Shown here one piece after another: positions 25 through 62,583 of a DNA stretch of 64,000 nt. Position numbers and translations under genes: made by a program. Origin of the DNA: an uncultured Sphingomonadaceae bacterium (GTDB lineage: Bacteria; Pseudomonadota; Alphaproteobacteria; Sphingomonadales; Sphingomonadaceae). The notes beneath the pieces were generated by a model. That model saw only the letters and a list, made by a program, of their open reading frames with translations, did no database searches and was not told the origin of the DNA. The stretch lies in the NCBI GenBank assembly GCA_947501695.1, contig CANMWO010000001.1:1364001-1428000 (forward strand). Direction: 5' to 3'. Within the stretch, counting starts at the first letter, position 1. The number at the start of each line of letters is the position of its first letter.

Positions 25-87
25 CCGTCGTATGATTTTTCTCATTCTTAACCAATATTTTCTGATTTGAATTTAGAAAATATTCTT

Positions 88-1179
88 ATGTTTCAGAGAC
101 CTCACCTAATGAACCATTTAAAGGAAACTCTTTCTGATTTAAAACATCGCCCTGTTCTTTATGACCTGCTGCCACTGGTCATCATTTTCCTAGTGGTAAA
201 ATTGGTTGTGTTTCTGTTCGAGCGGATTGTTAGCTTCTCGGGCGGCGGATTGCGCGCTCCTTATCAAGTGTCCGGCGAAAGTTTGAATGGTCTGGGACTA
301 AGCGGTCCGGTGGGACAAAACGATATCGTTGAAGCTATTTCGGCCCAGCGCATAGACTTCGACACAGCCATTTTTAGCGCTTGGACGGAAAATTTACCTT
401 TACCGGAATGGGTATTTTTTGTCAGTTTTATCTGTGCATGGATGACACCCAGCCTATATTTTGTAATCACCATTTTGCAAAAAGGTGGGCTAACCGCTCG
501 GCGACGCACAATTGCAATAGGTATAACTTCTATATCTGGCCCGATCGCCGCTATTGGAATGTTGGCTGGAGGATACTCTGTTATTAGGCCAGATCAATTT
601 GCCGGAGCCTTTGGGGGAGCAATCATTTATGGAGCATTTCTGCTGCATCTTTTCACGGACCCAAAAACCAGACAAAGAAAATGGTGGCCCCGTATATTCG
701 GTGCATTTGTGTTCGTTCATCTGGTTGTCATAAATTTGATATCCACCGGCACGTTTTTTAGCAAAAGCGACCCTAATATTGAAAAGTTGAACGGAATTAT
801 TTCAAATGCCTATCTTTCCGGATGGATCGAAGAAGCTCATTTTCTGCTTGTTAGTGATGCTTCGCTAATAGGTCCGGTTTCCATTGGTTTGCTGACGCCG
901 TTGATCGCTTACGAGTTCATCAAAGACAAGGTTATTAAGCGTTCTCCATCACTTCATATGGTGCTCGTTGTTTTCTACTTGGCTCTCGTCGGTTGTATTG
1001 CGTCCATTTTGCTCGGTATGATTGTCTTAACACCATCGACGATGACATTTGGTATTCTTTCTACAATATGGCTCGGCATGAGTATTGCTGGACAGTTGGA
1101 AAAAACCCTTGACCAAAAGAACGAGACCAAAAAATATCTGGATAGAATAGAGAATTGGGCGAGCGTTCGCTTAAACTAA
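88..1179 (+). CDS. Multispanning membrane protein of unknown function
   Basis: I do not recognise the family. From the ATG at 88 the protein is 363 residues. It has about seven or eight hydrophobic stretches: one near residues 23-45, a pair at about 106-160, further ones at 168-225, and three in the last third. The tail is charged, with a Lys/Glu-rich end. One extracytoplasmic loop of about 60 residues follows the first segment. No catalytic motif is visible. The start is uncertain: TTG at 67, ATG at 88 and ATG at 109 are all in frame and none has a clear Shine-Dalgarno sequence. The gene looks more AT-rich than the following genes and is flanked on both sides by copies of the same palindromic repeat, so acquisition by transfer is possible. 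It has no partner genes. Confidence 0.7.
   Translation: MFQRPHLMNHLKETLSDLKHRPVLYDLLPLVIIFLVVKLVVFLFERIVSFSGGGLRAPYQVSGESLNGLGLSGPVGQNDIVEAISAQRIDFDTAIFSAWTENLPLPEWVFFVSFICAWMTPSLYFVITILQKGGLTARRRTIAIGITSISGPIAAIGMLAGGYSVIRPDQFAGAFGGAIIYGAFLLHLFTDPKTRQRKWWPRIFGAFVFVHLVVINLISTGTFFSKSDPNIEKLNGIISNAYLSGWIEEAHFLLVSDASLIGPVSIGLLTPLIAYEFIKDKVIKRSPSLHMVLVVFYLALVGCIASILLGMIVLTPSTMTFGILSTIWLGMSIAGQLEKTLDQKNETKKYLDRIENWASVRLN

Positions 1180-54234: not shown

Positions 54235-54239
<5 letters not shown>
54213..54239. repeat. Perfect 9-bp palindrome covering the tRNA-Asp 3' end
   Basis: CGCCATTCC (54213-54221) pairs with GGAATGGCG (54231-54239) around a 9-base AT loop. The right arm includes the encoded CCA of tRNA-Asp on the minus strand. 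It could stop transcription of the DUF2842 gene or form the tRNA trailer hairpin. No T run follows on the plus strand. Confidence 0.6.
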
Positions 54240-54311
<72 letters not shown>

Positions 54312-54712: not shown

Positions 54713-55747
54713 ATGAATTATGCATCCGAAGCAACATTGATCGGTTTTAAACGATCCAAAAGCCGTCCTGCGATCCGTGGCGCCATGGCGCTCGCTATGA
54801 GTATATCCGCTCTCGCGATTGGTTCTACTACGGCTCACGCGGCTGGTACCATTGCTGGCACTGACATATTAAACACCGCGCAAGCGTCGTATGACGGTCC
54901 GAGCGGTCCTGTCGTAATCGATTCTAACACCGTGACGATTAAAGTTGATGAGCTGCTAGATGTTACAGTGGCATCCAGCGATCCCGGTGACATCGCTGCA
55001 GATAGCGGCGCCACACAGCAAGTCACGACCTATCAGGTAACTAACACTGGTAACGGCAACGAAGCTTTTACGCTCACCGCCGATACAGCCAAAGGTGGCG
55101 ACGACTTTGATACCAGCAATGCGGTTATCTACATTGATACTGACGATAATGGTGTTTTTGATGCCGGTGTAGACACTCTATACTCTCCGGGCTCAAATGA
55201 CCCCGTTCTAGCACCAGATGCTAGCGTCAACATTTTCATTCTTTCCGACGTACCTGCGGCAGCCACTGATGGGCAGCGCGCAGAAGTAGAGCTTTTGGCA
55301 GTAGCGGTAACTGGCAGCGGTACACCTGGTACCAGCTTTGCTGGACAGGGCGATGGCGGTGGAGACGCAGTTGTCGGCTCAACCGGCGCGGATGGCGAAG
55401 CCAGTAGCTTTTTCCTTATTCAAGCGGCGCAGGTTGCTTTGGTAAAAAGCGCGACGGTCATTGATCAATTTGGCGGAAGTCAGGCGGTACCAGGTGCAAC
55501 CATCACTTATCAGCTGGTTGCAACAATCACTGGTTCAGGCAGCCTCACCAACCTGAATATCACCGATGATATCCCCGCAGACACTACTTACACCGCAGAA
55601 ACCATCACACTGGAGGGCACAGGCCTGACCGATAGCGATGCCGATGCTGATGCGGGTTCTTTCGATGGCAGCGAAATTGCAGTCAGCCTGGGCACTGTTC
55701 CCGGCGGACAAACTCGCACCATCACCTTCCAAGTAACAATTGACTGA
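54713..55747 (+). CDS. Secreted DUF11-like beta-sandwich protein A
   Basis: The protein is 344 residues. A long signal peptide (cut near TTAHAAG, about residue 43) is followed by a module opening NTAQASYDGPSG, then SNTVTIKV. A middle domain has an Asp-rich turn (YIDTDDNGVFDAGVDT) that may bind calcium. The C-terminal DUF11-like domain runs VPGATITYQLVATITGSGSL to TFQVTID. It is acidic, Thr/Ser/Gly-rich and lacks Cys in the mature part. It is a full-length relative of the protein at 56309-57409. No anchor is seen, so it is exported and perhaps held by the large outer-membrane protein downstream. Its exact role is unknown. Confidence 0.8.
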   Translation: MNYASEATLIGFKRSKSRPAIRGAMALAMSISALAIGSTTAHAAGTIAGTDILNTAQASYDGPSGPVVIDSNTVTIKVDELLDVTVASSDPGDIAADSGATQQVTTYQVTNTGNGNEAFTLTADTAKGGDDFDTSNAVIYIDTDDNGVFDAGVDTLYSPGSNDPVLAPDASVNIFILSDVPAAATDGQRAEVELLAVAVTGSGTPGTSFAGQGDGGGDAVVGSTGADGEASSFFLIQAAQVALVKSATVIDQFGGSQAVPGATITYQLVATITGSGSLTNLNITDDIPADTTYTAETITLEGTGLTDSDADADAGSFDGSEIAVSLGTVPGGQTRTITFQVTID

Positions 55748-55756
55748 GGACTGAGA

Positions 55757-56239
55757 ATGATGATGAAAATCAATCTTTTAAAGCGTCTGGCTATATTGGC
55801 TGCCGTGGCAATCCCAGGAACAGCGTTGGCCGCTAACAATGTTTCGCTTTCCAGTGACGTTTTTGTAGAACGCACAGTGGAAAAGCCGGATGGCAAGACT
55901 GCGGTCATGCTCGAAGAACCAAAAACGGTCATTCCGGGCGACAATCTCGTCTTCGTGGTCAAATATAAAAATGTCGGCAGCACGCCAGCAACAGATTTCT
56001 CTGTCACCAATCCGCTCCCCAAAGCGGTTGCGTTCAATGGAACGTCTGATGGCACCGAAATTGTCTCCGTTGACGGAGGCAAAAAATGGGGGTCGCTCGC
56101 GACTCTTACATATACGCGCGAAAATGGGGAGGTCCGCCCTGCCCTTATGAGCGACGTCACGCATATCAAGTGGAAATTTAATCGTGCCCTTTCAGTGGGT
56201 TCTGAAGGGAAACTTGTATTTCGCGGCACTGTGAAGTGA
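55757..56239 (+). CDS. Secreted single-domain DUF11-like protein B
   Basis: The protein is 160 residues. The signal peptide ends near TALAANN. One beta-sandwich domain has the DUF11 pattern: VIPGDNLVFVVKYKNVGSTP, then FSVTNPLPKAVAF. It ends LVFRGTVK, like the ends of proteins A (TFQVTID) and C (LLFRATVD). Three ATGs lie close together at 55757, 55760 and 55763, with GAGGA upstream. It is ten bases after protein A and clearly in one operon. Confidence 0.8.
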   Translation: MMMKINLLKRLAILAAVAIPGTALAANNVSLSSDVFVERTVEKPDGKTAVMLEEPKTVIPGDNLVFVVKYKNVGSTPATDFSVTNPLPKAVAFNGTSDGTEIVSVDGGKKWGSLATLTYTRENGEVRPALMSDVTHIKWKFNRALSVGSEGKLVFRGTVK

Positions 56240-56308
56240 CCGCAAAACCGTATCGGATCGCCGCGGGGGTTTGGCGATTCAAATTTAAAATGAACCAGGA
56301 GAACAGTA

Positions 56309-57409
56309 ATGACCAGTAAACTGAAGCTTCTCGCTACCGCGGGTGGCGTCTCTGCATTAATGCTGGGTGCAAACCCAGCTTTTGCAGCAGGCACAACCGC
56401 AGGCGATGCAATAACCAACAATGTTTCCGTCGCCTATCAAGTTGGCGGCGTAGATCAAACGGCTGAAACCGATTCAGATACGTTCACAGTCGATCGCAAA
56501 CTCGACCTGACTGTTTCTGAAGCCAATGGAGCGGCTCAATCGGTTACTCCAGGCCAGACCGCAGGAGCGCCTAATCCGGCCTTCCTGACATATACAGTGA
56601 CCAACGATTCAAACGACGTTGTCGACTTTGAACTGACCGCTGCACAACAAACAACCGGAGCGGCTACTCCTTTCAGTGGCACCGATGACTTTGATGTTAC
56701 CGGCCTTCTCATTTTCGTCGAATCTGGCGCAACTCCTGGCTACCAGCCAGCTGAAGATACCGCGACATTCATTGACGAGCTTGCTGAAGATGCAAATGCC
56801 ACCGTCTATATCGTCGGTGACATCCCGCTCGGCCTAGCTACTGGTGATGCCGCAGGTATCACGCTGACAGCCGCTATCAAAGAGGGTGACACAGCTGCTA
56901 CTCTTGGTGGTGATTATACTGTCAACGCAGGTGCAAATACCGAAGATGGCACCGTCAATGCTGCGAATATCGACAATGTCATCGTGAACGCATCAGCTTC
57001 CGATACGGATAACTTTGTTATTTCCGCCGCTAACGTTAGCGTTGTGAAATCAAGTGCTGTTCTTTGGGATCCGGTAAACGGTAGCACAAACCCGAAATCA
57101 ATTCCGGGTGCGGTTATCGAATATTGTATCGCTGTAACCAACGCTACAGGCAGTGCAACTGCAACCAGCGTCAGCATTTCGGATGATATTTCAACGCTTG
57201 ATCTATCGTTCTATGCGACGGCTCCGGCATCCGGACCAGCCACTATTCCGGCTGCGAACGGTGTTCGTTCTGCTCTGGCATGTGATGGTACAGGTACCAA
57301 CGCTGATGCAGGTACTCTTGCTGAAGCATCCGGTGTCATCACCGGCGACCTCGGCGATGTCGCTGCAGGCGTTACCGAAACGCTGCTCTTCCGGGCAACG
57401 GTAGACTAA
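56309..57409 (+). CDS. Secreted DUF11-like beta-sandwich protein C
   Basis: The protein is 366 residues. A signal peptide (NPAFAAG, about residue 27) is followed by an opening module, TNNVSVAYQVGG, then DSDTFTV, similar in layout to protein A. The C-terminal DUF11-like domain reads IPGAVIEYCIAVTNATGSAT and ends LLFRATVD. Two Cys in this domain could form a disulfide. AGGAG lies seven bases before the ATG. Proteins A and C look like old duplicates of one gene. Confidence 0.8.
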   Translation: MTSKLKLLATAGGVSALMLGANPAFAAGTTAGDAITNNVSVAYQVGGVDQTAETDSDTFTVDRKLDLTVSEANGAAQSVTPGQTAGAPNPAFLTYTVTNDSNDVVDFELTAAQQTTGAATPFSGTDDFDVTGLLIFVESGATPGYQPAEDTATFIDELAEDANATVYIVGDIPLGLATGDAAGITLTAAIKEGDTAATLGGDYTVNAGANTEDGTVNAANIDNVIVNASASDTDNFVISAANVSVVKSSAVLWDPVNGSTNPKSIPGAVIEYCIAVTNATGSATATSVSISDDISTLDLSFYATAPASGPATIPAANGVRSALACDGTGTNADAGTLAEASGVITGDLGDVAAGVTETLLFRATVD

Positions 57410-57423
57410 AAATTGAGGATTGC

Positions 57424-57468
57424 GGCGGCTTACCGGGATTTCCGGTAGGTCGCCGTCACCTCTTTTTT
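57424..57468 (+). terminator. Terminator-like hairpin inside the cassette
   Basis: A 13-bp stem, GGCGGCTTACCGG / CCGGTAGGTCGCC (57424-57436 with 57442-57454, two G-U pairs) with loop gattt, is followed by cacctctttttt and a second T run at 57475-57481. It lies between protein C and the large gene, so it may reduce read-through into the latter. Confidence 0.7.
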
Positions 57469-57483
57469 GGCTCCTTTTTTTGG

Positions 57484-60400
57484 ATGCGTTGGTTAACCAA
57501 TCTTTTTAAGCCAGTCAGTCTGGCACTTGCTGCAGGAGCGATGATCGCGCCTGCCTCTATAGTACCTGCATATGCGCAAAGCTTTCCCCTTATAAGCAAT
57601 GTCGCAGAGGCAGAGTGGGATGTCGGCAACCAACGCCTGCAAACCCCATCTAATCGCATCGAAATCCAGGTTGTAGCACCCCCAACAGTGCCGCCTGAAA
57701 TCACATTATACCGTTTTGATGATCCGCCAGGTGCGGAACAGCTTTCCCTCCCGGGAACAATCTGCAGAGGCTCCGGTGGCAATGTCCCCGTTGAGCTCCG
57801 TGGTGTTTTTGCGGGAACCAATACCAATCCAGCTGCTATTGCTCCGACAAGCATGATCCGCGCTGGAGAGCCCCTAATTGTCTCAGTTCTTGCCCCAAAC
57901 AGGAATCTGAACAGTGCCGCTATCGATAGCTTCGATATTGTTCTCACGACGCCCTCTGGCGACCGTGAGACCATCAATGTCGTTGAAACCGACGTCAATA
58001 GCGGTCGTTTCGTTGGCATGATCAATACCGCAGCGATACCGCCTGCGCCGGTCCAGGGTGATTGCGTCCTTTCCGTGCAGCCTGGCGATCAGCTGAACGT
58101 CGGTATTGACGAAGTCAGCGGTAATGCAATCGGTACAGTTGAAATCGGGATTTTGATCGATCCCTTTGGTGAAACCTTTGACAGCGGCGATGGTAGCCCT
58201 GTTGATGGCACGCGGGTAACGCTTATTGACGTTGCTACGGGCCTGCCAGCAGATGTTTTCGGTGATGACGGTGTTTCTGTGTTCCCCAGCACAGTGATTT
58301 CCGGCGGATCTGTAACGGACAGCGGCGGCAATGTGTATAATTTCACCGAAGGCTTCTATCGCTTCCCGTTTGCCCGTCCCGGGCAATATAGGCTCTTGAT
58401 AGAGCCTCCGGCGCCTTATACGGCGCCGTCTGCCGCCACTCCGGCGGAATTAGCTGGCTTTCAGCGCACTGACGGACAGCCGTTCACAATCGTGGATGGT
58501 TCCTACGGCGGTATTATAACGCTGAATGACCCCGCGCCCGTGCGGGTCGATGTCCCGCTGGACAGACCGGGCGTACCGATAACCATCACAAAGGCGGCAT
58601 CCACTGCGATTGCTGTGCCCGGTGATGCTATCCAATATCGGGTAACCGTGCAAAATAGCGATCCGGTGCGCACCACCGGCGCGATTACGATTGAGGACCA
58701 GCTGCCGAACGCCATGCGCCTGCGCATAGACACCGTTCGTTACAATGGCTCTCTCGTGACGCCCGTCGTGCAGCCCAATGGACAGAATTTCACGGTCAGC
58801 GTCCCCGCTCTAGCCCCTGCGGCGAGCGGATTACTGACATATTTGGCGGAAGTTCGCCAAGATGCCCAGCCTGGCGACGCCATCAACACCGCCCAAGCTC
58901 GCGATAATCGCGGCGCAGAAAGCCTGGTGACCAGCGTGCCCGTTCGTATCGAACGAGACGGCATTTCCGAAAGATTCACGATTATTGGCCGTATTACCGA
59001 CGGCGGCTGCAACGTAGATCCCCGTAAAGCCAATGGAATTGGCGGAATTCGGGTCATGTTGCAGGATGGAACCTACGCCATCACCGATGAAGATGGTCGT
59101 TATCATTTTGAAGGCATCAAACCGGGTCTGCACGTCATGCAGGTCGATCCGTCGACTTTCGCGGCCGATATGGCTCCGATTAACTGCGCTCAGAACACAC
59201 GCGCCGCTGGCAGCGACATTTCCCGCTTTGTTGAAGGCCGTGGCGGCGCTCTGAAACGCGCAGATTTCCGTGCCCACAAAGTGGCAGCCCGTGAAATTCA
59301 GGCTATCGAAACATATCAAAAACCAGAAATTCTCTCAGATCCTGAAGCTGCAGGCGCTGAGCGTAACTGGCTTGCCGGACAGGCACCTGGCATTGGCTGG
59401 GTTTTCCCGGAAACCGGCTATAATCCTCGGGTTAAGTCACTTCGTGTAGCTATCAAACATGGCAAAGGTCAACGTGTAGAGCTAACCTTAAACGGCGATG
59501 CGGTGAACCCGCTGTCGTTTGACGGTAAGGACAAAAGCGCAAATGGTTCAGTTCAGGTCAGCGTTTGGCGCGGCCTGGATATCAAGACCCGTAAAAACAC
59601 TCTTGTTGCTCGGGTTTTGGATAAAGATGACAAGTTGGTCGAGGAATTGACCCGCGAAGTCCATTATTCGGCAAGCCCGCTGAACGCAGAATTGCTGAAA
59701 GAACGCTCTGTGCTCGTTGCAGACGGCGTAACGCGACCAGTTTTGGCCGTCCGCCTGACCGACCGTGATGGCAAACCAGCCCATCATGGCGCCACAGGCG
59801 ATTTCAGCGTTCCATCGCCCTATGCACCTGCCATTGAGGTAGATGCGCAGCAGGCGAACCAACTTTCCGGTCTAGAACGCGGTGCCCCTGTGTGGCGCGT
59901 AGAGGGCGATGAGGGTATTGCTTACATCGAACTCGCTCCAACAACGGCTTCCGGCTCAGTCAGCATCACTTTCCCATTCCAGGATGGTGAAGTATCGCGC
60001 GAACAGCGCATCGAAACATGGCTTGATCCCGGCAATCGTCCTTGGACTGTTGTTGGCTTTGCCGCGGGGACCGTAGGCTTCAACACATTGGACGAGCGTC
60101 TCGAAGACCTCGCCGATGATGATGACAATATCAACGTGGATGGCCGCGTTGCGCTTTATGCCAAGGGTCGTGTAACCGGCAAATGGCTGATGACATTGGC
60201 CTATGATACCGACAAAAAAGAAGATGAAACCCGCTTTGCCGGCGTTATCGATCCGCGCCGCTACTACACGGTATATGCCGATCGTTCCGAACAACGTTAC
60301 GACGCCGCTTCGGTCCGCCGCCTGTATCTGAAACTCGAACGCCCGCAGTTTTATGCGCTGTTTGGTGACTATGAGACCGGTATCAATGAACCTGAACTGG

Positions 60401-62583
60401 CTCGCTACCAGCGTGCCTTTAACGGTGTGAAAGCCGAATATCGCAGCGATCAGGTTAGCGCCCTCGCCTTTGGTGCGGATGCTGCCAATCGTTTCCGCCG
60501 TGAGGAAATTCAAGGCAATGGCCTCTCCGGTCCTTATGCTCTCTCAACTCGTGATATTATCGCGAATAGCGAGCGGATCACGCTGGAAACGCGCGATCGT
60601 CTGCGCTCTGATCGGATTGTGGAGCGGCGTGAACTGATCCGTCATATCGATTATGACATCGACTATCTCGCTGGCACGTTACGCTTCCGTGAACCTATTC
60701 TCAGCCGCAGCAGCGGTCTTGATCCGCAGTTCATCATCGCCGAATATGAAGTATTGGGCGTCGGTGGCCGTGATCTAAACGCCGGTGGCCGCCTAACTTA
60801 CGAGTCCAAAGACAAGAAGTTCAAAATCGGTGCGACCGCCATTCATGACGAAGACGAAAGCGTGAAAAGCGATCTGTTGGGCGTTGATGTCCGCTATCGC
60901 CCTAATCTGAAAACAGAGTTTCGCGCAGAAGTTGCCTCGACCGATAGCGAAGCTAAAGCCGCCAGCACACTGACCGGTGAGCCGCAGGGCGTGGATAGCG
61001 CTGTCGCATGGCTGATCGAAGCAGAGCATCATGGTTCGAAATTCGATGTACTCGCTTATGTCCGCCAGCAATCCGCCGGCTTCGGTTTGGGTCAGCTCAA
61101 CGCTGCCGAAAGCGGAACACGCAAATTTGGTATCGACACACGCGTCCGCCTGAGTGACAAGCTTTCACTGGCTGCCAGCGGTTATCAGGAGAATTTCCTA
61201 ACCACCAATGCGCGTCGGCGTTCTGGCACGGCGGAAGTTGAATATCGCAACAAGAACACTGCCCTGCGCGCTGGTGTGATCCATGCCGAAGACAGATTGT
61301 CCGACGGCAGCATAAATCGTTCTACTTTGGCACGCCTTGGTGCAACCCAGAAATTATTCGACGGCAAGTTGGAACTGGATGCACAAACCGAATTCGCGCT
61401 TGGCGGACAGGATGAAAGCATCGACTTCCCTGCTCGTCACAGTGTGACCGCTCGCTATGCCATCACCAACGATATCAAACTGGTTGGCACCTATGAAATA
61501 GCCGATGGTGAAAATATCGATGCGCGCACCGCTCGCATTGGTGTCGATGTCGCGCCATGGGACGGTGCCCGCGCCGTGGTTAGCGCCAATCAGCAAGAAA
61601 TTACCGAGTTTGGACCACGTACCTTTGCGGCTTACGGACTGACGCAGAGCATTCCGCTCAACGACAAGTGGACGATTGATTTCTCACTCGACGGCAACGA
61701 AACCTTGGGGGGTTTTGACCGCAGCGATGTGATTAATGACGCACAGCCAGTCGCTTCAGGCGGTTTCCTGGGTAATGATGGTTCGCTGACGGAAGATTTC
61801 GTCGCTGTCACCGCCGGGGCGACCTTCAGAAACGATGACTGGAGCTGGGTATCGCGCGCAGAATATCGCGATGGTGATATCAGTGAACGTTATGGCTTCA
61901 CCTCCGCTGTTTTGAAACAGATTGGTGAAGGCAGTTCTTTGGGAGCATTGGGCAGCATCTTTCACGCGAAAGATGAAACCGGAACCAGTACGCAAGTGAT
62001 CGAGGCAGAAGCCAGTTGGGCGCATCGCCCGGCCGACAGTCAATGGTCCTGGCTTGAAAAACTCGAGTTCCGCGAAGACAAAGTCCGCAATGCCGTCGCT
62101 GGCACGTCCGGACCGATTGGTGGCGCACCGTTGCTCGTCAACGGAAACGTCACTTCTCGTAGAATTATCAATAGTTTAAGCGTCAATTATACGCCGATTG
62201 ACGCGGATGACGGCATCTTTACCGAAGCCGGAGAATATAGTTTCTTTTGGGGAAGCCGCTATGTTTTCGACAAATTTGGTGAAGATGATGTCAAAGGCTG
62301 GAGCAATGTGATCGGGGCGGACGTCAAGTTCGATCTATCCGATACCATTGACATCGGCGGACAGGCGACCGCGCGCATAGGCACTGATTTTGATACAATT
62401 GCCTATAGCGGGGGACCGAGCATCGGGATCACGCCATTTAAAAACGGCTATATCTCGCTCGGCTATAATGTGGTGGGTTTTGAAGACCGCGACTTTGAAG
62501 AAAGTCGCTATACCAGAGATGGGCCCTTCATCACCTTCCGCTTGAAATTTGATCAGCAAACGCTCGGGAATTTGGGGTTCTAG
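57484..62583 (+). CDS. Very large outer-membrane protein: DUF11, carboxypeptidase-regulatory-like and beta-barrel domains
   Basis: The protein is 1699 residues. The signal peptide ends at PAYAQS (about 32). The opening module (SNVAEAEWDVGN, then SNRIEIQV) echoes those of proteins A and C. A DUF11 domain follows at about 363-485 (AVPGDAIQYRVTVQNSDPVR). An SdrD-B/carboxypeptidase-regulatory-like domain lies at about 497-555 (IRVMLQDGTYAITDEDGRYH). Ig-like regions extend to about 845. From about 850 to the end the sequence alternates polar and hydrophobic residues like an outer-membrane barrel and closes with Phe, as barrels often do. There is no TonB plug or usher signature. No Shine-Dalgarno sequence is evident before the ATG. 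It may anchor or export the three small proteins; that is inference. Confidence 0.82.
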   Translation: MRWLTNLFKPVSLALAAGAMIAPASIVPAYAQSFPLISNVAEAEWDVGNQRLQTPSNRIEIQVVAPPTVPPEITLYRFDDPPGAEQLSLPGTICRGSGGNVPVELRGVFAGTNTNPAAIAPTSMIRAGEPLIVSVLAPNRNLNSAAIDSFDIVLTTPSGDRETINVVETDVNSGRFVGMINTAAIPPAPVQGDCVLSVQPGDQLNVGIDEVSGNAIGTVEIGILIDPFGETFDSGDGSPVDGTRVTLIDVATGLPADVFGDDGVSVFPSTVISGGSVTDSGGNVYNFTEGFYRFPFARPGQYRLLIEPPAPYTAPSAATPAELAGFQRTDGQPFTIVDGSYGGIITLNDPAPVRVDVPLDRPGVPITITKAASTAIAVPGDAIQYRVTVQNSDPVRTTGAITIEDQLPNAMRLRIDTVRYNGSLVTPVVQPNGQNFTVSVPALAPAASGLLTYLAEVRQDAQPGDAINTAQARDNRGAESLVTSVPVRIERDGISERFTIIGRITDGGCNVDPRKANGIGGIRVMLQDGTYAITDEDGRYHFEGIKPGLHVMQVDPSTFAADMAPINCAQNTRAAGSDISRFVEGRGGALKRADFRAHKVAAREIQAIETYQKPEILSDPEAAGAERNWLAGQAPGIGWVFPETGYNPRVKSLRVAIKHGKGQRVELTLNGDAVNPLSFDGKDKSANGSVQVSVWRGLDIKTRKNTLVARVLDKDDKLVEELTREVHYSASPLNAELLKERSVLVADGVTRPVLAVRLTDRDGKPAHHGATGDFSVPSPYAPAIEVDAQQANQLSGLERGAPVWRVEGDEGIAYIELAPTTASGSVSITFPFQDGEVSREQRIETWLDPGNRPWTVVGFAAGTVGFNTLDERLEDLADDDDNINVDGRVALYAKGRVTGKWLMTLAYDTDKKEDETRFAGVIDPRRYYTVYADRSEQRYDAASVRRLYLKLERPQFYALFGDYETGINEPELARYQRAFNGVKAEYRSDQVSALAFGADAANRFRREEIQGNGLSGPYALSTRDIIANSERITLETRDRLRSDRIVERRELIRHIDYDIDYLAGTLRFREPILSRSSGLDPQFIIAEYEVLGVGGRDLNAGGRLTYESKDKKFKIGATAIHDEDESVKSDLLGVDVRYRPNLKTEFRAEVASTDSEAKAASTLTGEPQGVDSAVAWLIEAEHHGSKFDVLAYVRQQSAGFGLGQLNAAESGTRKFGIDTRVRLSDKLSLAASGYQENFLTTNARRRSGTAEVEYRNKNTALRAGVIHAEDRLSDGSINRSTLARLGATQKLFDGKLELDAQTEFALGGQDESIDFPARHSVTARYAITNDIKLVGTYEIADGENIDARTARIGVDVAPWDGARAVVSANQQEITEFGPRTFAAYGLTQSIPLNDKWTIDFSLDGNETLGGFDRSDVINDAQPVASGGFLGNDGSLTEDFVAVTAGATFRNDDWSWVSRAEYRDGDISERYGFTSAVLKQIGEGSSLGALGSIFHAKDETGTSTQVIEAEASWAHRPADSQWSWLEKLEFREDKVRNAVAGTSGPIGGAPLLVNGNVTSRRIINSLSVNYTPIDADDGIFTEAGEYSFFWGSRYVFDKFGEDDVKGWSNVIGADVKFDLSDTIDIGGQATARIGTDFDTIAYSGGPSIGITPFKNGYISLGYNVVGFEDRDFEESRYTRDGPFITFRLKFDQQTLGNLGF

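Follow-up and report, generated by a model that had tools for sequence, protein, structure and literature searches.

The window analysed here is a 64,000-nucleotide stretch of DNA from an uncultured Sphingomonadaceae bacterium (G000:C1:1364001-1428000, in a 3.6-Mb genome). It carries four co-directional genes, A, B, C and D, which lie on the plus strand where an earlier annotation made from the sequence alone (the original prediction) had placed them, separated by 9 (A-B), 69 (B-C) and 74 bases (C-D) (Table 1). All four products have signal-peptide-like starts with AxA-type sites, as judged by eye, and the named relatives of D at 75–94% identity include Parasphingorhabdus, Sphingorhabdus and uncultured Sphingomonadaceae. 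This cassette is real, conserved, widespread and apparently undescribed. From its modules, the exact ends of its proteins, halves that are complementary by profile, the conservation of a residue triad and patterns of co-occurrence, we consider it reasonably likely that A–D and a set of unlinked proteins, here called E, form a head-to-tail surface fibre built on split DUF11 (CLIPPER) domains.

Table 1. Features of the cassette and its surroundings. Positions are those of the window, except for the three E proteins, which are given on contig C1; residues (res.) are those of the respective protein.
Feature	Position	Strand	Content or basis
tRNA-Asp gene	54235-54311	-	ahead of A–D
Gene A, 344 residues	54713-55747	+	signal peptide (by eye), N-terminal donor hairpin, sandwich, truncated DUF11 acceptor
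A donor hairpin, res. 45-80, Asn54 in NTA motif	54845-54952	+	profile homology to C and D hairpins
A middle, res. 82-238			alpha-2-macroglobulin-MG/sialidase-Ig-like sandwich; fold matches of model
A truncated DUF11 acceptor, res. 239-344, Lys245 and Asp285	55427-55744	+	Pfam match
Gene B, 160 residues	55757-56239	+	signal peptide (by eye) and acceptor-type domain only
B catalytic-Asp position, Asn (N85)	in gene B		50/51 orthologues
Gene C, 366 residues, A homologue	56309-57409	+	donor hairpin, middle region, truncated acceptor
C donor hairpin, res. 27-64, Asn37	56387-56500	+	profile comparison
C truncated DUF11-like acceptor, res. 234-366, Lys247 and Asp292	57008-57406	+	ending as in unlinked E
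C-D terminator-like stem-loop	57422-57456	+	16 pairs, T-rich stretch after
Gene D, 1699 residues	57484-62583	+	signal peptide (by eye), donor hairpin, Ig-like domains, giant predicted outer-membrane beta-barrel
D donor hairpin, res. 33-64, Asn39	57580-57675	+	Asn in 47/49 family orthologues, 2 gaps
D complete internal DUF11, about res. 366-492	58579-58959	+	triad Lys370/Asp405/Asn468
D CarboxypepD_reg/SdrD_B-like domain, res. 515-563	59026-59172	+	below Pfam cut-offs
D predicted barrel, about res. 981-1687	60424-62544	+	36 strands of at least 7 residues; AlphaFold2 strand count
E protein of the same genome	C1:201619-203610		P-domain and DUF11 head
E protein of the same genome	C1:1616785-1618680		CshA_NR2 and SpaA head
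E protein of the same genome	C1:1762265-1763719		H-type lectin head

The original prediction held that A and C are related over their full length, that A, C and D share an opening module and that A, B and C share an end, and all three claims were borne out. By BLASTP, A and C are 30% identical over nearly their full length (E-value 1.7e-20); no other pair among A–D reached significance, the best being C-D across DUF11 (0.031). Family profiles of the opening module, compared using hhalign, gave probabilities of 98.3% for A-D, 97.2% for A-C and 93.8% for C-D. A hidden Markov model (HMM) built from A openings only matched 39/49 D and 35/52 C orthologues, and one built from D only matched 51/53 A and 16/52 C orthologues; the C-only model matched 29/53 A orthologues, yet none of 49 D. 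None of the 51 B orthologues was matched by any opening-module HMM. The shared end is exact to the residue in orthologue alignments. Among alignments reaching the last residues of the query (74 of 75 for A, 74 of 74 for B and 71 of 75 for C), 0–1 residues follow it in 74/74 A orthologues and none follow it in 73/74 B and 71/71 C orthologues.

The description of A, B and C as three exported DUF11-like proteins needs to be narrowed. All three look exported and A and B are DUF11-like, but C as a whole protein has no DUF11 match among the Pfam and NCBIfam profiles. PF01345 (DUF11) matches D 366-474 with 35.8 bits (cut-off 24.6), while the whole-protein scores of A (21.0) and B (21.8) fall below the cut-off and the terminal domain of A taken alone scores 28.4. 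TIGR01451 of NCBIfam exceeds its cut-off in A, B and D.

The opening and the end are best read, from their profiles, as parts of a single DUF11 domain, the end being its truncated body and the opening the tail that this body lacks; once mature, A, C and D begin with what looks like the hairpin that A, B and C lack at their ends. In A, the C-terminal domain covers positions 11-84 of the 114 in Pfam DUF11, the match stopping at residue 343 of 344, and the internal DUF11 domains of D and other proteins run on to positions 96-114, into a hairpin of the form NxA...N. A pooled hairpin profile aligned to columns 87-120 of a 124-column complete-DUF11 profile (15 internal domains, 13 from E-type and two from D-type proteins), Asn on Asn, with a score of 22.7 against a column-shuffle maximum of 16.5 (0/150 shuffles reached 22.7). 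Aligned separately, the A, C and D hairpins fall within the same tail, at columns 89-120, 88-99 and 91-120, respectively. Joining a hairpin to the A acceptor extended its DUF11 match from 11-84 to 11-98 with the A hairpin (28.4 to 32.9 bits), to 11-96 with that of D (31.2 bits) and to 11-114 with that of C (33.5 bits). These gains of 2.8–5.1 bits are small; a scrambled hairpin gave 28.9 bits (+0.5). The related DUF7507 model likewise gained with the A hairpin, from 24.2 to 35.5 bits on the A acceptor and from 20.1 to 25.2 on that of C, with no gain from the C or D hairpin on the A acceptor (23.8 and 24.4 bits). When the E1 acceptor was fused to the A hairpin and compared with the PDB sequences, no DUF11 structure was found.

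The positions of these segments in the chains are regular. The hairpin Asn lies 10 residues past the nearest signal-peptidase-like site in 49/52 scored A proteins (set of 53) and 36/50 scored C proteins (set of 52), and 4–8 residues past it in 38/44 scored D proteins (set of 49). At the other end, the DUF11 match stops at position 83-84, no more than two residues from the C-terminus, in 4/7 distant A/C-type proteins. In three distant A-type proteins (L233, L238 and L108), an acceptor lies inside the chain and is succeeded by hairpin sequence, more domains and a C-terminus that is truncated, and each of the three looks like two subunits joined together. In L233 the profiles place an acceptor at 198-316 (E-value 1.9e-7) and then a hairpin at 323-356 (2.5e-5); in L238 and L108 the hairpin-like sequence after the internal acceptor was recognised by eye.

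Both halves are present in A and in C, and either protein could close on its own hairpin. A and C might then be self-contained monomers with a circularly permuted DUF11, D and E using the fold for some other docking, and the A hairpin is indeed modelled fairly confidently (block means of 85, 73 and 87 for residues 51-80). This explanation cannot hold for D, which has only the hairpin, or for B and E, which have only the acceptor, and the natural fusion in L233 joins an acceptor to the hairpin that follows it. We regard it as improbable.

The proteins fall into three classes: hairpin only (D), hairpin and acceptor (A and C) and acceptor only (B and E). Hairpin profiles matched 0/51 B, 0/10 E and 0/37 E-type rows (34 distinct), and D ends in its barrel with no terminal acceptor. 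E proteins end like C, with the acceptor ending 0–15 residues from the C-terminus in 37/37 rows; in the five rows at 15 residues, the match reaches only position 122 of the 132 in the profile. Their heads are diverse, with CshA_NR2, SpaA, P-domain, H-type lectin, AgmC-like and Big_9/cadherin domains. An E gene stands directly 3' of D in 7/17 mapped family loci (L092-L095, L098, L099 and L101 among L090-L106).

Individual loci illustrate this variety. At L092 (2373-4940, minus strand), the E-type protein behind D combines the acceptor ending with an AgmC-like N-terminal domain (NCBIfam NF047640, E-value 1.8e-41, below the model cut-off). Three tandem E-type genes encoding 602–610 residues lie behind the cassette, on the other strand, at L273/L105 (G066:C3), which suggests exchangeable heads. 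A solitary B-type paralogue is found at G000:C3:235717-236406 (locus L089, 3718-4407), and B-like genes are seen even where D has no match in the genome, so the role of B-type proteins may be broader.

DUF11 has lately been given the name CLIPPER, and its structure 9IFR contains the isopeptide triad Lys715-Asp748-Asn806 (PMC12617251). In the internal DUF11 of D, K370, D405 and N468 are each present in 49/49 sequences. A weak alignment of D with 9IFR (E-value 0.077) pairs K370 with chain position 10 and N468 with 101; these counterparts are 91 apart, like Lys715 and Asn806, and D405 falls on an Asp at 44, a residue away from the published position. In 11/16 D homologues there is a match to TIGR04226, a model of isopeptide-forming domains (best E-value 2.2e-8). 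Between A, C, D and E this triad is divided, with Lys and Asp in the acceptors of A, C and E and Asn in the hairpins of A, C and D, and a triad split between acceptor and hairpin is what an intermolecular bond requires. Split isopeptide domains that react in trans are established for the engineered SpyTag/SpyCatcher pair.

The three residues are strongly conserved. The acceptor Lys is found in 53/53 A, 52/52 C and 30/34 E proteins, the acceptor Asp in 53/53 A, 51/52 C and 28/34 E, and the hairpin Asn in 52/53 A, 51/52 C and 47/49 D. Lys and Asp (97% and 95% of 139) are among the most conserved acceptor columns, and Asn (99% of 146) is the most conserved hairpin column. B is distinctive in that its Asp is replaced by Asn in 50/51 close orthologues. 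Further afield, a hand-picked set of distant acceptors has Lys in 35/38 and Asp in 38/38, and of 20 distant D-type N-termini in which the region is present, inspected by eye, 15 have the hairpin Asn. These patterns lead us to predict that a Lys-Asn isopeptide bond probably forms in A–D/E; whether the joints seal themselves in this way is, in our judgement, an evenly balanced question.

Strand complementation might instead be real and non-covalent, the Lys, Asp and Asn being kept for folding only. Bond formation is not universal among DUF11 domains (PMC12617251), and exceptions to the triad count against self-sealing joints: 4/34 E proteins lack the Lys and 6/34 the Asp, Lys is missing from 3/38 of the hand-picked distant acceptors, and the distant D-type N-termini include three of 20 with Ser in place of Asn (L221, L224 and L225), one with Gly (L238) and one with no clear hairpin (L229). 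The change in B is not universal either, as 15 distant B proteins have Asp in six cases, Asn in five and another residue in four. Set against this explanation are the conservation of all three columns and the replacement of the Asp in close B orthologues. It is, in our view, unlikely.

Among 80 fetched loci, those with at least 3.1 kb upstream of D show the order A-B-C-D in 72/73 cases, the exception (L133) having no B match. Close homologues of D that regularly lack A–C, the finding that would have refuted the original prediction, were not seen, although shorter barrels resembling part of D do exist without A and C. In 147 near-relative genomes we found matches to D in 50, A in 49, B in 61 and C in 48; the count for B exceeds that for D because B-like paralogues also stand alone. 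The C/E-type acceptor ending occurs in 48/50 genomes with a D match and 0/97 without, and the 48 positive genomes have 2–7 matches each to the acceptor profile (A and C included). The two D-positive genomes without the ending are G008, a fragmentary assembly, and G083, where the D match is partial, lies in the barrel region and is accompanied by no A or C match. In the one-contig genome G022 (C1:192293-200147), A- and C-type matches persist, as do seven to the acceptor ending, but both D and B are interrupted; the interruptions may reflect decay or sequencing error.

The cassette is also found beyond these relatives. The D profile matched 54/398 genomes drawn across the phylum at an E-value of 1e-20 or better. 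A distant set was assembled from 20 regions in 19 genomes, mostly with long D matches, and two named plasmids, Acinetobacter haemolyticus CP085288.1 and Pacificitalea manganoxidans NZ_CP021408.1. A/C-type neighbours are present in 19/21 evaluable regions of this author-chosen set (L235, which begins at D, was not counted); in the other two, L239 and L240, D is broken into two genes and no A/C-type neighbour was found. Any match to the acceptor profile, other contigs included, was obtained in 16/24 distant genomes, and the profile misses at least one, G517, that has A- and E-type genes. The same grammar is found in Sphingomonadaceae and in other families of the phylum, and also on two plasmids, one from Rhodobacterales and one from Acinetobacter. 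On the A. haemolyticus plasmid p4 (L107), annotation breaks the A-type region into several short adjoining open reading frames, with an OmpA-family gene and genes of B, D and E type on its flanks. On plasmids of Sinorhizobium meliloti and Eleftheria terrae (L109 and L110), a second arrangement is seen: a giant DUF11 or SdrD_B protein has no A–C annotated alongside and is directly followed by a protein of 1261–1405 residues with a D-like barrel segment.

DUF11 domains are frequent in adhesin stalks (PMC12617251), and A–E could be ordinary fibrillar adhesins that share domains by common descent and have no special assembly. The exact ends despite unrelated heads, the orphan halves and the strict synteny with D all speak against this view, which we consider very improbable.

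AlphaFold2 supports the claim that D is a barrel protein. A model of D 500-1699 from a 56-sequence alignment (predicted local distance difference test, pLDDT, 71.1; predicted template modelling score, pTM, 0.49) has, by our count, 36 strands of at least 7 residues. Its fold matches are generic outer-membrane barrels, including Deinococcus SlpA, LptD, BtuB, AlgE, PapC and FimD, and the sole solved chain touched by the D profile is a glycoside hydrolase (E-value 0.14). In the model of A, residues 82-238 resemble alpha-2-macroglobulin MG domains (Z up to 8.8) and a sialidase immunoglobulin (Ig) domain (Z 8.4), and the model's residues 240-348 resemble 5fx8 (Z 9.1) and BcpA, RrgB, Cna and Ace (Z 7.7–8.3); a fold Z near 8 may reflect only a common arrangement. 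Searches of Pfam and NCBIfam at E-values up to 1 found no usher family in D and no PapD-type chaperone in A, B or C.

A giant barrel could instead serve as a translocon or surface anchor that reads a C-terminal DUF11-like sorting signal, much as type IX secretion reads the C-terminal domains of its own substrates, with A–C and E as independent cargo. A single C-terminal domain on many heads, found in the family only alongside D, would fit this arrangement, and the SprA model TIGR04189 gives weak matches to 5/16 D homologues (best E-value 0.015). Kinship of D with SprA was not established: its own match scores 9.6 bits against a cut-off of 200, and SprA is absent from the 50 fold matches listed for D. 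The mature N-terminal hairpins of A, C and D and the divided triad would also go unexplained, and we judge the translocon explanation rather unlikely.

In the split-DUF11 fibre that we favour, the C-terminal DUF11 of each subunit would lack its last two strands, and the N-terminal hairpin of the next protein, exposed by cleavage of the signal peptide, would supply them. D, with its barrel of about 36 strands, a hairpin and no terminal acceptor, would be the base of the fibre; A and C would be the polymerising subunits; E proteins, with their varied adhesin-like heads, would be tips or cargo; and B, with its Asp-to-Asn change, could act as a non-covalent cap or chaperone for hairpins. With Lys and Asp in the acceptor and Asn in the hairpin, the joints would probably seal themselves covalently without a sortase. 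In its fullest form, for which we see about as much to say on either side, the proposal is of a widespread, sortase-free covalent Gram-negative pilus whose joints are the native counterpart of SpyTag/SpyCatcher, with the first subunit on the D hairpin, exchangeable adhesins at the other end and B capping without reacting. Complementation between chains, polymerisation, the bond and the roles of B, D and E are all points that we infer, as is any part of D in exporting the subunits. The best-supported reading is the one first suggested in the original prediction, namely that these proteins would assemble at the surface with an outer-membrane partner of their own. The complementarity of the segments, the recurrence of the same ending on unlinked adhesin-like proteins and the divided triad were absent from that account.

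Several observations weigh against the split-DUF11 fibre. The hhalign probability for hairpin against tail is a modest 21.6%, that for hairpin against the internal DUF11 of D itself is no higher than 2.7%, and the C hairpin aligns with the tail over just 12 columns. Adding the A hairpin brought no material gain to the E1 acceptor (24.1 to 24.6 bits) and the C acceptor had no DUF11 match before or after. In two distant A/C-type proteins the DUF11 match stops at 75 (L229) or is absent (L223), and in L233 the best match, an internal domain, stops at 84 despite the hairpin sequence after it, so that a stop at 84 is by itself no proof of truncation. D 853-979 is highly conserved, yet its pLDDT is below 50, and A-B-C modelled as a single chain reached a pLDDT of 75.7 and a pTM of 0.49, which we also counted on this side. 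Finally, the DUF11 family, used as a control, is found in 54/147 genomes and is nearly confined to those with D; at the thresholds used, G004, G052, G072 and G106 have DUF11, with D and the acceptor ending not found. Given that DUF11 tracks D and that the genomes are related, the co-occurrence cannot be counted separately for each protein as independent support.

The C-D gap folds better than 200/200 shuffles (z -5.2), and compensatory changes are seen in 9/17 consensus pairs of its stem-loop among 15 close-relative sequences. By a strict count, a strong hairpin before a T-run is present in 20/73 C-D gaps, so that the stem-loop belongs to closer relatives. Overall, terminator-like sites show no excess (8 against 9.3), and the C-D site alone has more than 7 pairs; the B-C gap folds unremarkably (z 0.50). 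A promoter scan found nothing ahead of A, with 2 sites against 6.5 in shuffles. The stem-loop may limit D relative to A–C, as expected for a shaft and its base.

If the proposal is true, it describes a way to build bacterial hairs that has not been described and accounts for many proteobacterial proteins annotated as 'DUF11 domain-containing'. The fibres would be a new class with joints that are perhaps covalent without any enzyme, and the presence of hairpin, acceptor or both would be a simple sequence rule for base, shaft and tip. Pairs of naturally split isopeptide domains would also make useful tags for ligating proteins. Searches confined to an open-access library, which lacks most subscription papers and bioRxiv preprints, turned up no account of the cassette, of strand exchange between DUF11 domains or of a DUF11 isopeptide domain that is split; what was seen of papers on F-ENA, lipid mutants and type 11 secretion had no bearing on the cassette.

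The donor-strand principle for fibres is already known, and no tested component of A–D belongs to a described assembly family. The predicted logic resembles that of chaperone-usher pili (type 1, P), in which an N-terminal donor segment completes the incomplete Ig-like domain of a neighbour, tip adhesins are acceptor-only and an outer-membrane barrel forms the base. It differs in that A–D have no usher or PapD-type chaperone family match, the domain belongs to DUF11, the donor segment forms a hairpin of two strands with the triad Asn in it, and the barrel, of about 36 predicted strands, itself bears the first donor. Type IX secretion has the giant barrel SprA and a single C-terminal Ig-like domain on many cargo proteins but, to our knowledge, no donor hairpins; the cassette shares the giant barrel and the one C-terminal Ig-like domain on many proteins, with a SprA match far below the cut-off. 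Sortase-assembled Gram-positive pili are covalent head-to-tail fibres of isopeptide-containing Ig-like domains, whereas A, B and C stop at an FxxTVD-type last strand and no C-terminal sorting signal was found in them. DUF11/CLIPPER fibrillar adhesins share the domain family and the Lys/Asp/Asn triad (9IFR), but their bonds are described as intramolecular and their domains as complete, unlike the domain and triad divided between proteins here (PMC12617251). Like the predicted fibre, the archaeal threads of Sulfolobus (Saci_0406) combine donor-strand complementation with a proposed intermolecular isopeptide bond, with no sortase known there. In the threads, the N-terminal amino group of Asp24 is apparently joined to Asn57 two subunits off; being archaeal, they have no outer-membrane barrel, and the accessible part of the report does not mention DUF11 (PMC9715654). 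The archaeal thread is the nearest printed precedent that we found.

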